Positions 21,947 through 25,351 of a stretch of 64,000 nucleotides of DNA are shown piece by piece. Positions within the stretch are counted from its first letter, which is position 1. Every line of letters begins with the position of its first letter. The stretch is from contig JAVHLM010000006.1 of the NCBI GenBank assembly GCA_031082125.1, positions 62,001 through 126,000 on the forward strand. The letters are read 5' to 3'. The translations under genes were made by a program, and so were the position numbers. This DNA is from Candidatus Eremiobacterota bacterium. GTDB taxonomy: Bacteria; Vulcanimicrobiota; CADAWZ01; Ess09-12. Below the pieces are notes generated by a model. The model ran no database searches. It was not told where the DNA came from and worked only from the letters and a program-made list of their open reading frames with translations.

Positions 21947-23269
21947 CTATTTCGTAGTCTGCCAGGCCGCGAGATTCTGCACGATGCCGTCCTTGTTCTG
22001 TGCCACGGGGGCCAGCCAGTTTCTCACGTCTTCCGGAAGGCCGGGGCACGCGGGATCACCGTTCACTCCCTGGTACCACCTGTTGAAGTCGGCCGACCGG
22101 GGATTCTTGTTGTATTCAGTGTGATACCAGCCGAAAAAGTCGCTCTTGGCCGCATCGTCATCGGGAAGGCCGTGGCTTATCTGCGCGGGGGCGAACTCTG
22201 GCATCTGGGCAAAGAAATTGGATACGGCGTAGCTTCCCGATTCTTCCGGCAGGGCCCCGTCAATTTTCATGTTCCCATCGGCATCACGGTCCACGGCAGG
22301 GTTGGCGACGACGAGGTCCTTCTCGCTGTATATCACGACGCCCTGATTGGCGCCGCTCTTGTCGAGCTGCCCCCCCTTGAGGGAGGTCTTGCCCCCCACG
22401 ACGACGACGCCCGTGCCCTCGACGGCTCCCTTGACCTCCAGGTTCCCTTTCACCCAGAGGGTCTTGCCATCCTTCATCTTCAGGTTCCCTTCAAGAACAA
22501 GGGTGTCGTTCTCATCACACTCGATCATCATGTCGTTTTCCACGATGAAGCAGTCCTCTTCGGAGTCCTTCTTGAAATCCTCCTTGGCCTTTATGTCCTT
22601 GATGGAGTTTTTCTTCTCGTCGCTCGCATAGGTGTTCTTGGCCGAAGGGATGCTGACGGAGCCGTAATTTGAGTGCGAGTTCCAGCTTGTCTTGACACCC
22701 GACACCGTTCCCTTGCCGCTCACCTTGCCGTTGCAGTGCACGTTCCCGCCGCCGGCGCTCCCATAGACGCTCTGCCCTTCGCCGTTTGAATGGAGCCAGC
22801 CCGAGTCGGGGGCGGGGTTTTTCACGCTTTTGATGCCATTGATAAAGACCTCTCCGTCATAGAGGATGGGGCCGTCGGAGCCCATGCCCACATAGCCTCC
22901 CGGGGCCTGCGCCACTTCAACCTTCACGGTCCTCTTGAAGGGCCTCACGGTACCTTCCGAGAGAATCCGGGCTCTCCCCGTGCTGCCCAGGTTGTTTTCC
23001 AGGATGGTGGCCTTATAGGTCGCCTGGCTGTCGGCGAGAGTCCCTTCAATGACGGTATTTGCGGCGGCGGTGGCATTGCTCTCGAGATAGTCCATGGCCT
23101 TCATCACGCCCGCCTCGGCGGCAAGCAGGGCCTGCGTGCGGTACTGGTGATGGGCCATGTAAAGGGCATTGCGGGAGCTCAAGGTAAGGGTTGCCATGAG
23201 CAGGATAAGAAGCAGCATAGAAACCATGAGCACCACGATGAGGACGATTCCTCTCTGTTTCTGTTTCAT
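21947..23269 (-). CDS. PilX-like type IV pilus-associated protein
   Basis: The 440-residue product begins MKQKQRGIVLIVVLMVSMLL, a prepilin-like class III leader and hydrophobic helix typical of the PilX N-terminal family, and continues with an AAEAG segment. The large C-terminal part (about 130-440) is rich in Gly, Asp, Lys and Val with regularly spaced short strands (GTVSGVKTSWNSHSNYG, GTGVVVVGGKTSLKGG), suggesting a beta-solenoid. The ATG at 23269 has GGAGGG at 5 bases. Open frame upstream of this ATG lies inside the preceding pilW-like gene and is not coding. It is about twice as long as usual PilX proteins. Confidence 0.8.
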   Translation of the reverse strand: MKQKQRGIVLIVVLMVSMLLLILLMATLTLSSRNALYMAHHQYRTQALLAAEAGVMKAMDYLESNATAAANTVIEGTLADSQATYKATILENNLGSTGRARILSEGTVRPFKRTVKVEVAQAPGGYVGMGSDGPILYDGEVFINGIKSVKNPAPDSGWLHSNGEGQSVYGSAGGGNVHCNGKVSGKGTVSGVKTSWNSHSNYGSVSIPSAKNTYASDEKKNSIKDIKAKEDFKKDSEEDCFIVENDMMIECDENDTLVLEGNLKMKDGKTLWVKGNLEVKGAVEGTGVVVVGGKTSLKGGQLDKSGANQGVVIYSEKDLVVANPAVDRDADGNMKIDGALPEESGSYAVSNFFAQMPEFAPAQISHGLPDDDAAKSDFFGWYHTEYNKNPRSADFNRWYQGVNGDPACPGLPEDVRNWLAPVAQNKDGIVQNLAAWQTTK

Positions 23270-23279
23270 AGGCACCCTC

Positions 23280-23984
23280 CTAATTCTGTGGAAGAATTTC
23301 ATGGACCACCCGCGAGTACGACTCGGGGCGCGCCTTGGAAAGATCAAGCCCCGTGTGGGTCTTGTAAGCCACCACATCCACCATGACGCAGGGAAAGCGC
23401 GGCACATAGAAGTCCACGTTGTAGATATTCCTTGCCATGACTGATTCCTTGTACTGCCCGTCGGCGGCATATGTCGATAAAGACGCGGGAACAAGCTTTC
23501 TCACCACGCTCGTGGGCGTGATGGGGAGCTCCTTCATCCTGATAGTGCTGCTCTGCTGGTGAAAATAGACCACAAGATATTTTCTCCATACCACGTCCGG
23601 TATCTCGCACTCTCCGTCAACGACATTCGCTCCATAGAGATCGACGGTCACCGCCGAAGGAAGAGGGGTCTTCGGCGAGAGAAAGGAGATGGCATTCCCC
23701 GTGTTGGTAATTGAGTAGGGCGTCGAGAGGCGGAGCTCCTCCCTTATCTTCTCGCTCGCGATGACGACGGCCTGCTGCGTGTCGGTGTCGGCCGATGTCC
23801 TGTTGAGGCCGCGGAGGGCCGGGATAAGGGCCTGGTACATGACAGAGAGCACGACGCCCAGAATCCCCATGACGATGAGGACCTCAACAAAAGACATACC
23901 CCTCTGGGAGGCATGTCTTTTGACAGGCTCCCCGCGGCGCGAAGAGAAAGCCCGGGACTTACTGCTCCAGAAGAAGGGTATCAA
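23280..23984 (-). CDS. PilW-like minor prepilin
   Basis: The class III leader reads SQRG/MSFVEVLIVMGILGV, with the processing site after Gly and the expected Glu at +5. A pilin-like globular domain follows. There is no ATG upstream of the processing site in frame, so translation probably starts at the TTG at 23984, preceded by AGAGGCC and overlapping the pilV-like gene by 26 bases. That makes a leader of about 29 residues, long for a prepilin. Minor pilins of this type prime pilus or pseudopilus assembly. Confidence 0.82.
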   Translation of the reverse strand: MIPFFWSSKSRAFSSRRGEPVKRHASQRGMSFVEVLIVMGILGVVLSVMYQALIPALRGLNRTSADTDTQQAVVIASEKIREELRLSTPYSITNTGNAISFLSPKTPLPSAVTVDLYGANVVDGECEIPDVVWRKYLVVYFHQQSSTIRMKELPITPTSVVRKLVPASLSTYAADGQYKESVMARNIYNVDFYVPRFPCVMVDVVAYKTHTGLDLSKARPESYSRVVHEILPQN

Positions 23985-24369
23985 GCAAGGCCTCTTTCCT
24001 TCCCGTTTTGTCGCTCCAGGAAACTTTCACCACCACCTTGTAGAGTCTCCCCGAGACAAGGCCGATAATGACCTCTCTGGTATATTCCAGGATGTCGCCC
24101 GTCTCCACGTCCTGCACAAACTCCGAGGGCAGCGCGAGCGATGCGCTGTGGGCGTCCTGTGAGAGCTTCTTGGGATTGCCTTTGTACTCCTCGATGATCT
24201 TCTTGGCGATGCTGGTGGCAATTGCCCTGTTCTTGCTCACCTTGGAATAAGTATAGCCAAGGCACATCATGACGGAGAGCACCACAATGGTGGCAATCCA
24301 GAGGCCGAATATCACCTCGATGAGAGTAAAAGCTGCACACGCTCTTCTCTTAGCCAAATAATCACCCAT
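23959..24369 (-). CDS. PilV-like minor prepilin
   Basis: The leader GDYLAKRRACA/AFTLIEVIFG is a type IV prepilin signal with Ala in place of the usual Gly before the cleavage site. The remaining 120 residues resemble PilV/type II secretion minor pseudopilins. It is the first gene of a four-gene minus-strand set (pilV, pilW, pilX, lipoprotein). I chose the ATG at 24369. A longer open frame exists, but a perfect promoter lies directly upstream of this ATG, so no upstream start can be used from it. No Shine-Dalgarno sequence is present. Confidence 0.82.
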   Translation of the reverse strand: MGDYLAKRRACAAFTLIEVIFGLWIATIVVLSVMMCLGYTYSKVSKNRAIATSIAKKIIEEYKGNPKKLSQDAHSASLALPSEFVQDVETGDILEYTREVIIGLVSGRLYKVVVKVSWSDKTGRKEALLDTLLLEQ

Positions 24370-24373
24370 CTTT

Positions 24374-24402
24374 ATTATAATAGAAAAAGGGAGGCTTTTC
24401 AA
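24374..24402 (-). promoter_or_regulatory. Sigma70-type promoter, apparently leaderless, for the pilin operon
   Basis: On the minus strand TTGAAA (24402-24397) and TATAAT (24379-24374) are separated by exactly 17 bases. The -10 element ends 4 bases before the ATG of the pilV-like gene, so transcription should begin at or next to the start codon. This would give a leaderless mRNA, consistent with the lack of a ribosome binding site. Confidence 0.75.
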
Positions 24403-24463
24403 TGATTCGTATAATATCGTAACATACCTGAATTCTTTTCGATACTCCCCGGGAGGAATTGCC

Positions 24464-24547
24464 ATGTCCCTGGTGAAACCCCATGGAGAGAATTTCCCGG
24501 GAGCCTCCCATGAGTCCTTTTGCTCCTCCCGGCATCTTTACCGGTAA
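24464..24547 (+). CDS. Possible 27-residue leader ORF
   Basis: GGGAGGAATTGCC precedes an ATG that opens 27 codons (MSLVKPHGENFPGASHESFC and on) and stops 32 bases before the next start. No family is recognisable. The ribosome binding site is good, but so short a frame can arise by chance. It may be a leader peptide for the downstream TGA-containing gene. Confidence 0.25.
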   Translation: MSLVKPHGENFPGASHESFCSSRHLYR

Positions 24548-24579
24548 GGACACACGACACGGAAAGGAGCCGATTGACA

Positions 24580-24765
24580 ATGGGAGCCATGGCACTTTTG
24601 AAGCTTGCGGGGGCACCGATTCTCGGGGGCCTTGTGGGATTCACCCTTCATCTGCTTGCGAAGAAACTTGGCATAGGCGGGTGAATATTCATCTGTAACC
24701 CCTGGGTGAGCATCATCTTTGGTGCCATGATGGGGGTTATGATGACTGCCGGCGGCAGACCGTAA
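24580..24765 (+). CDS. Candidate selenoprotein, DUF6132-like small membrane protein (in-frame TGA)
   Basis: ATG at 24580 (AAGGAG upstream) opens 34 codons up to TGA at 24682-24684, and the same frame continues 26 codons to TAA. The parts read KLAGAPILGGLVGFTLHLL, KKLGIGG, [TGA], IFICNPWVSIIFGAMMG. From memory, DUF6132 proteins carry GxCPxxSNPxxSxxYGAxxG after one N-terminal helix. The TGA falls exactly on their first conserved Cys, and NPW...GAMMG lines up after it. A Cys-to-Sec replacement is therefore plausible. Downstream, CATCAT/ATGATG forms a 6-bp stem with a 10-base loop starting 33 bases after TGA, extended by AACCCC/GGGGTT. The usual rule of a G among the first two loop bases is not met. 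The alternatives are a pseudogene with one nonsense mutation or a base error. No selenocysteine machinery genes are in the window. Confidence 0.55.
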
Positions 24766-24780
24766 AAACAGGTGAAAAAG

Positions 24781-24801
24781 CAGGTGGCCAGGGGCCACTT
24801 G
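24781..24801 (+). other. Hairpin after the candidate selenoprotein gene
   Basis: CAGGTGGCC-AGG-GGCCACTTG forms a 9-bp stem (one G-T pair) 15 bases after the TAA stop, with no T-run behind it. It could be a weak or Rho-assisted terminator, or an mRNA-stabilising end. Confidence 0.35.
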
Positions 24802-24844
24802 CCATTATATCAGGAACGCGGTGAGGAGACGGAGGGCTGTGCAT

Positions 24845-25351
24845 ATGAGATTTCTGACTGCTGCGGGAATACTGGTGATAATGCTGGCTCTGGCTCTCCC
24901 TGCCTGCGCCGACAGCCTTGCCGTGCCAGGAGTGCGGCTTAACGGGGCCTATATGGACATGCTCTACGAGGTGGTCATGAAAGGCTGGGGGCCCCCCGAT
25001 GCAAAGGACGAGCTCGCCGACGGGCTCACCGTCTACAGGCACAAGCGCTATCTCACCCTTTTCGGCGTGATGGAGGGAAAGGTAGCCCTCGCGGAGACCT
25101 TCTCAGGCTCCTTCTCCACCGATAAGGGGATAAAAACAGGAAGCCACCGCACCGACGTGGAAAAGGCCTACGGCTCCCCCATAGACCAGGAGAACTATAC
25201 CTTCACCTATTTTGACGGTTCAGGCCTCCCTCTTTACTCGCTCATCTACAAAGGCGACGGCATCGGTTTTTCCTTTGATCCTCAGACACACCGGGTCCGC
25301 TCTCTCTTCGTCTTTCCCGCGGGAGTATATCCCAAGCTCATCCACCAGTGA
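24845..25351 (+). CDS. Exported protein, unknown function
   Basis: The 168-residue product starts MRFLTAAGILVIMLALALPA with a Sec signal peptide probably cut after ALPACA (about residue 20). The mature part has SmpA/BamE-like features (GVRLNGAYMDMLYEVVMKGW, GSHRTDVEKAYGSP, a pattern where a short offset sets a start point for a small alpha/beta domain), but no firm family. The ATG at 24845 has GGAGGG at 9 bases; an in-frame start eight codons earlier is less likely. Its last 14 bases overlap the converging amgK-like gene. Confidence 0.7.
   Translation: MRFLTAAGILVIMLALALPACADSLAVPGVRLNGAYMDMLYEVVMKGWGPPDAKDELADGLTVYRHKRYLTLFGVMEGKVALAETFSGSFSTDKGIKTGSHRTDVEKAYGSPIDQENYTFTYFDGSGLPLYSLIYKGDGIGFSFDPQTHRVRSLFVFPAGVYPKLIHQ

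Follow-up and report, generated by a model that had tools for sequence, protein, structure and literature searches.

An in-frame TGA in a 61-codon gene

Does the TGA that interrupts a short reading frame in this genome end a peptide, or is it read as selenocysteine (Sec)? The window, by which we mean the whole stretch of 64,000 nucleotides analyzed here, is positions 62001-126000 of contig C6 in a genome of 7.43 Mb (G000). On its plus strand, one frame at 24580-24765 holds 61 codons and a TAA, with a single in-frame TGA, and the product is MGAMALLKLAGAPILGGLVGFTLHLLAKKLGIGG-U-IFICNPWVSIIFGAMMGVMMTAGGRP-stop. An earlier note, made from the sequence alone, had given this frame, its coordinates and the lone TGA at codon 35, and re-reading the DNA bore out all three. 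We propose, with a probability of roughly 80%, that 24580-24765 is a DUF6132 selenoprotein gene in which Sec35 and Cys39 form a membrane pair that probably serves as a redox or sulfane-sulfur relay. The parts of the gene are as follows:

24563-24569, plus strand: Shine-Dalgarno-like AAAGGAG, 10 nt 5′ of the ATG, from reading of the sequence
24580-24765, plus strand: putative DUF6132-like selenoprotein gene, with helix 3-30, turn U35-x3-C39-NPW and helix 41-58
24682-24684, plus strand: in-frame TGA, codon 35, aligned with the invariant DUF6132 Cys; basis, homologues and Sec machinery
24694-24696, plus strand: TGT encoding Cys39, the sole partner Cys, at +4 from Sec; basis, the partner-Cys tally

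A cluster of leftward pilin-type genes lies to the left of the gene. This cluster (21947-24465, minus strand) consists of three genes with prepilin-type N-termini (FTLIEV, FVEVLI and a PilX-like GIVLIVVLMVS) and probably encodes components of a type IV pilus or pseudopilus. Directly 3′ of the DUF6132-like stop lies a strong 10-bp hairpin (24780-24802) with a T-rich tail on the minus strand, on which it looks like a terminator. The downstream gene, 24821-25351, had no Pfam match. Neither it nor the opposite-strand prepilin-like genes revealed a redox link or a functional hint.

The TGA column is otherwise occupied by Cys

With the 61-residue protein as query, tblastn against 58 relatives recovered homologues, in most of which a TGA is the single stop; the window protein matched L018 at 1.2e-9 and L019 at 4e-8. 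A wider set of 388 genomes contributed five TGA forms outside the phylum (L081, L085, L087, L089 and L095) and 11 Cys forms, among which we counted L080, whose TGA is its terminal stop. In all, 18 homologues carry an in-frame TGA, 13 in the phylum (the window's included) and five in other phyla. All 18 place it in one aligned column, ungapped around it, and the same column is TGT or TGC in 12 other homologues. The earlier note would have rejected its reading had homologues stopped at this place or had unrelated codons there; they have Cys or TGA at this position, and none stops there. Across the 27 aligned sequences, this key column is Cys or Sec in every one. Within the phylum, the motif around the TGA is G/T-U-x3-C-N/S/D-P (U-x3-K in one sequence), with no gap from the TGA on, and the sole Cys form is L019 (GSCPITCNP) of genome G008.

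Sec and Cys have exchanged more than once. L095 reads GCNGGG-U-AITSSPW: the canonical GCxxGxCPITSNP, except that U stands in place of the second Cys. It falls within the canonical Cys clade, with branch support 99/98. The tree needs three Sec/Cys changes, at least two of which are forced by supported branches.

Searches of other collections added little. With the window protein alone, a genome contig collection yielded no relative; with a sub-alignment it yielded only L074, a record matching G008. We found no relatives among viral contigs and plasmids, nor in the PDB and NCBIfam.

Selection on the protein continues past the TGA. Among TGA forms, differences 3′ of the TGA were 0.42, 0.31 and 0.67 at the three codon positions, while beyond the end of the gene they were flat at 0.74-0.75, and close pairs had dN < dS. 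This coding-type constraint makes a pseudogene or a true stop very unlikely. We also considered a sequencing error, which is excluded by the recurrence of the TGA in 18 separately assembled genomes.

If the TGA were a nonsense mutation or a genuine stop, the locus would encode a 34-residue peptide or be a dead gene, a caveat that the earlier note had raised. TGA is indeed a normal stop in this genome, closing 11 of the 28 long open reading frames in the 64-kb window, and the canonical rule for a selenocysteine insertion sequence (SECIS) is not followed (see below). However, the TGA occupies the same codon in 18 genomes from several phyla and is replaced by TGY in 12, the constraint just described persists beyond it, Sec machinery is present in 18 of 18 genomes, and the two halves are separated by neither a start codon nor a gap. 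These observations contradict the caveat, and we give an interrupted or terminated gene only a few chances in a hundred. Readthrough or reassignment of TGA, with Trp, Gly or another standard residue inserted, is slightly less probable still: the open frame itself is all that speaks for it, while the use of TGA as a stop elsewhere in the window and a column that otherwise holds only Cys speak against it.

The genome carries a complete Sec system

The earlier note had named lack of selB or selC as grounds for rejecting its reading; a search of the genome for selA, selB, selC and selD found all four. The tRNA-Sec has a UCA anticodon and scores 70 bits, and ARAGORN agrees with the assignment. It is adjoined by selB (382 bits), a second full-length selB lies on contig C8 (320 bits), selA scores 557 bits, and selD scores 385 bits and has its own in-frame TGA. 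This selD (C8:155936-156859, L077) is itself a selenoprotein gene, encoding HAAG-U-ASKIG, and has a compact, SECIS-like G-loop hairpin, AGGUCC-GGC-GGACCU, whose loop starts 17 nt after the UGA. That selD is a selenoprotein gene too is a sign that the genome decodes UGA as Sec.

The two SelB proteins (L009, C6:170366-172246; L010, C8:16892-18754) are 34% identical, but only one tRNA-Sec was found. Both exceed the TIGR00475 cut-off and contain the SelB winged-helix domain; the gene for the second adjoins an arginase/agmatinase-like gene. Several tRNA-Sec matches of 45-53 bits are look-alikes; one of them, L002 in this same genome, is a tRNA-Ser.

All 18 genomes with a TGA form have tRNA-Sec. In the 13 of the phylum, every match exceeds the gathering score (62-76 bits). 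As tRNA-Sec occurs in 102 of 149 genomes of the phylum, co-occurrence within the phylum is by itself modest evidence. The five genomes outside it all have tRNA-Sec as well (53-76 bits); the lowest-scoring match, in G229, shows a UCA anticodon, set in the loop CUUCAAA. In G008, the phylum's only Cys-form genome (86% complete), no true tRNA-Sec was found, its 51-bit match (L115) being a look-alike that ARAGORN assigns as tRNA-Ser. G026 has two matches over the Rfam cut-off, at 73 and 53 bits, the weaker of which may be a look-alike. Together, these results support a reading in which UGA35 would be decoded as Sec by the genome's own SelA/SelB/SelC/SelD system, and from the sequences we infer that Sec is inserted in the cell.

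Homology places the window protein in DUF6132

The Pfam model DUF6132 (PF19628) matched 25 of the 27 aligned members, the best at 3.1e-13 (E up to 1). Its gathering score of 23.2 bits is passed by L019 (24.2) and by a TGA form, L025 (27.5). The window's copy alone had no Pfam match and thus falls below the model; we place it in the family because it is homologous to accepted members such as L019, by the tblastn matches and the alignment. The AlphaFold2 (AF2) model of the window protein has helices at 3-30 and 41-58 and places Sec35 and Cys39 in the turn that joins them, at medium confidence (pLDDT 71.6, pTM 0.42). The predicted membrane topology is thus a two-helix hairpin. Both hallmarks of the family, a small two-helix membrane protein and an invariant Cys column in the turn (Cys or Sec in 27 of 27), are found when these modeled helices are taken with the alignment.

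Like the Cys forms of DUF6132, the window protein is about 60 residues long, has two hydrophobic helices, and follows the invariant position with x3-[SCA]-NP and then GA-x2-G. It differs in that the invariant Cys is replaced by Sec, in the phylum-type partner Cys at +4 instead of -5, and in lying under the detection level of the Pfam model. The first Cys of GCxxGxC, at -5, is absent from both the window's copy and the phylum type, which have the partner at +4 instead. Since L081, L088 and L089 from outside the phylum show this arrangement too, we treat it as subtype variation within DUF6132. The earlier note had placed the TGA at the first conserved Cys of the family; the Cys is conserved, but it is the invariant second Cys of GCxxGxC.

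The key residue and a single partner Cys are coupled

Apart from the key residue, every one of the 27 aligned members contains a single Cys. Canonical members have it at -5, the phylum type and some others at +4, and L024 at -2; three further TGA forms outside this tally (L026, L033 and L089) have it at +4. The TGA form with the partner at -2 (L024/L060, genome G007) reads C-G-U and has Lys at +4. Paralogues L022 and L041, from genomes G032 and G038 that each also have a TGA form, have lost both residues, with Ala or Glu at the key site and Ser at +4. This coupling of key residue and partner Cys is our main ground for regarding them as a redox (or ligand) pair. A partner that shifts position would fit a disulfide or selenenyl-sulfide better than a rigid metal site.

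The mRNA is structured beyond coding need

Two nested structures follow the TGA:

24695-24740, plus strand: extended hairpin after the TGA, candidate non-canonical SECIS, minimum free energy (MFE) -24.3 kcal/mol
24710-24725, plus strand: upper hairpin whose UCUU loop lies some 31 nt past the TGA, without G at loop positions 1-2

The earlier note had described a stem-loop beginning 27 bases after the TGA. A stem-loop is present; the upper hairpin starts 25 nt after the TGA and is nested in the larger 24695-24740 hairpin. None of 200 dinucleotide shuffles folded as well as the window's RNA. For the 60 nt from the TGA (-24.3 kcal/mol), comparison with synonymous-codon recodings gave z = -4.0 (p = 0.002); for 63 nt, z was -4.75 and none of 1000 recodings reached as low. 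Across the family at 60 nt, p fell below 0.05 in 7 of 18 TGA forms (mean z -1.58, against -0.44 for the upstream control); one of the 12 Cys forms reached that level (mean z -0.68).

Several of the folds have a common basal stem, in which UGYAACCC pairs with GGGUURC-like segments, and an apical loop 31-32 nt after the UGA. By eye, L101 and L109 keep this stem through paired changes (AAUCC/GGAUU versus AACCC/GGGUU). In L024/L060 an mRNA stem also appears to be kept by paired changes, AAAAAUCCC with GGGAUUUUU. RNAalifold returned no consensus structure for 13 TGA forms, and by our own reading of the folds the position of the basal stem seems to shift by 1-2 nt from one sequence to another.

The bacterial SECIS (bSECIS) consensus calls for a G at loop position 1 or 2, at a distance of 16-37 nt from the UGA, and a subset of bacterial selenoprotein genes fail the consensus model (PMC13188914). 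Because some known genes fail it, the G-in-loop rule is not strictly defining. The window's copy fails the rule, as the earlier note had cautioned, and the family does no better than its recodings: 6 of 18 TGA forms conform where synonymous recoding predicts 4.0, which is no excess. The Rfam model SECIS_1 (RF00031) had no match in the window's genome but was silent in every control genome too, which makes that result uninformative, and an Rfam scan around the DUF6132-like gene returned nothing credible. Thus, the folding results support RNA structure beyond coding need in the window's copy and in some family members, and this structure is a candidate SECIS. A more specific proposal, in which a membrane selenol/thiol relay protein for sulfane sulfur is made in this lineage by decoding UGA through an atypical long-hairpin SECIS that lacks the loop G, perhaps with the second SelB, seems to us improbable in that full form.

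A probable membrane redox or sulfane-sulfur relay

The genes near relatives of the window's gene, recorded as raw occurrences, include thioredoxin (two in L113; also L116, L119 and L120), a thioredoxin-like protein (L126), OsmC (L109 and L113), pyridine nucleotide-disulfide oxidoreductase (Pyr_redox; L117, L119 and, with a rhodanese, L104), an MBL-fold protein with a rhodanese (L125), a further rhodanese (L122) and a di-haem cytochrome c peroxidase (L102). The paired Cys and these neighbors suggest a membrane role in thiol/selenol redox or sulfane-sulfur relay. After UGA35 has been read as Sec, the product would be a two-helix membrane hairpin with Sec35 in the turn, next to the conserved Asn-Pro; the sole Cys, Cys39, would follow four residues later. 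The pair would probably alternate between a selenol/thiol and a selenenyl-sulfide state. Anchored in the membrane, it would probably relay electrons or sulfane sulfur, with thioredoxin-type or CoA-disulfide/rhodanese proteins on one side and a membrane partner or substrate on the other. Sec in place of Cys would make the exchange faster or less prone to over-oxidation.

Alternatively, the pair could be a binding site for metals or metalloids (species of Hg, Cu, As or Se) in MerT-like membrane transport. Soft metals would suit a Sec/Cys pair in a membrane turn, and an ArsR-type regulator, identified by eye, lies upstream of one Cys form (L116). The mercuric transport family MerT (PF02411), too, consists of small selenoproteins of the membrane with a Cys/Sec pair, in a C/SxxU motif (PMC13188914). 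It is nonetheless a different family with a different motif and different gene neighbors: the PF02411 model matched none of 14 members at E up to 10 and none of 27 at E up to 1, and the genes near our relatives are mostly those of thiol/persulfide redox, not metal resistance. We regard metal binding as unlikely, at perhaps one chance in seven, and favor the redox or sulfane-sulfur relay.

Two other kinds of selenoprotein invite comparison. Selenoproteins of the UxxC/CxxU thiol-oxidoreductase kind (Trx, Grx and DsbG-like) also have Sec with a nearby resolving Cys; DUF6132 differs in having no thioredoxin fold, being a predicted membrane hairpin with U-x3-C or C-x4-U spacing. The YeeE/YedE thiosulfate transporter selenoprotein (PF04143) is also a membrane protein with Sec and a link to sulfur metabolism. 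It is a larger, multi-helix transporter, and the DUF6132 members scanned had no Pfam match to PF04143.

Implications

The earlier note had thought DUF6132 new as a selenoprotein family, and a 2026 compilation of prokaryotic selenoproteins, with 119 families and subfamilies in its table, does not include it (PMC13188914). The one paper in which we found DUF6132 mentioned deals with another subject; as our search did not extend to subscription papers, preprints or GenBank annotations, priority is not proven. At 61 residues the product would be a very small selenoprotein, and genes of this kind get called as a 34-residue reading frame or overlooked. Sec would pinpoint which residue is active in a domain of unknown function, the three alternative partner-Cys positions offer a ready test of its chemistry, and the neighboring genes for thioredoxin, OsmC, CoA-disulfide reductase and persulfide-type proteins suggest targets for assay. 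On the sequence evidence, DUF6132 is probably a new family of bacterial selenoproteins, present in at least 18 genomes from unrelated groups, and a probable membrane redox device.
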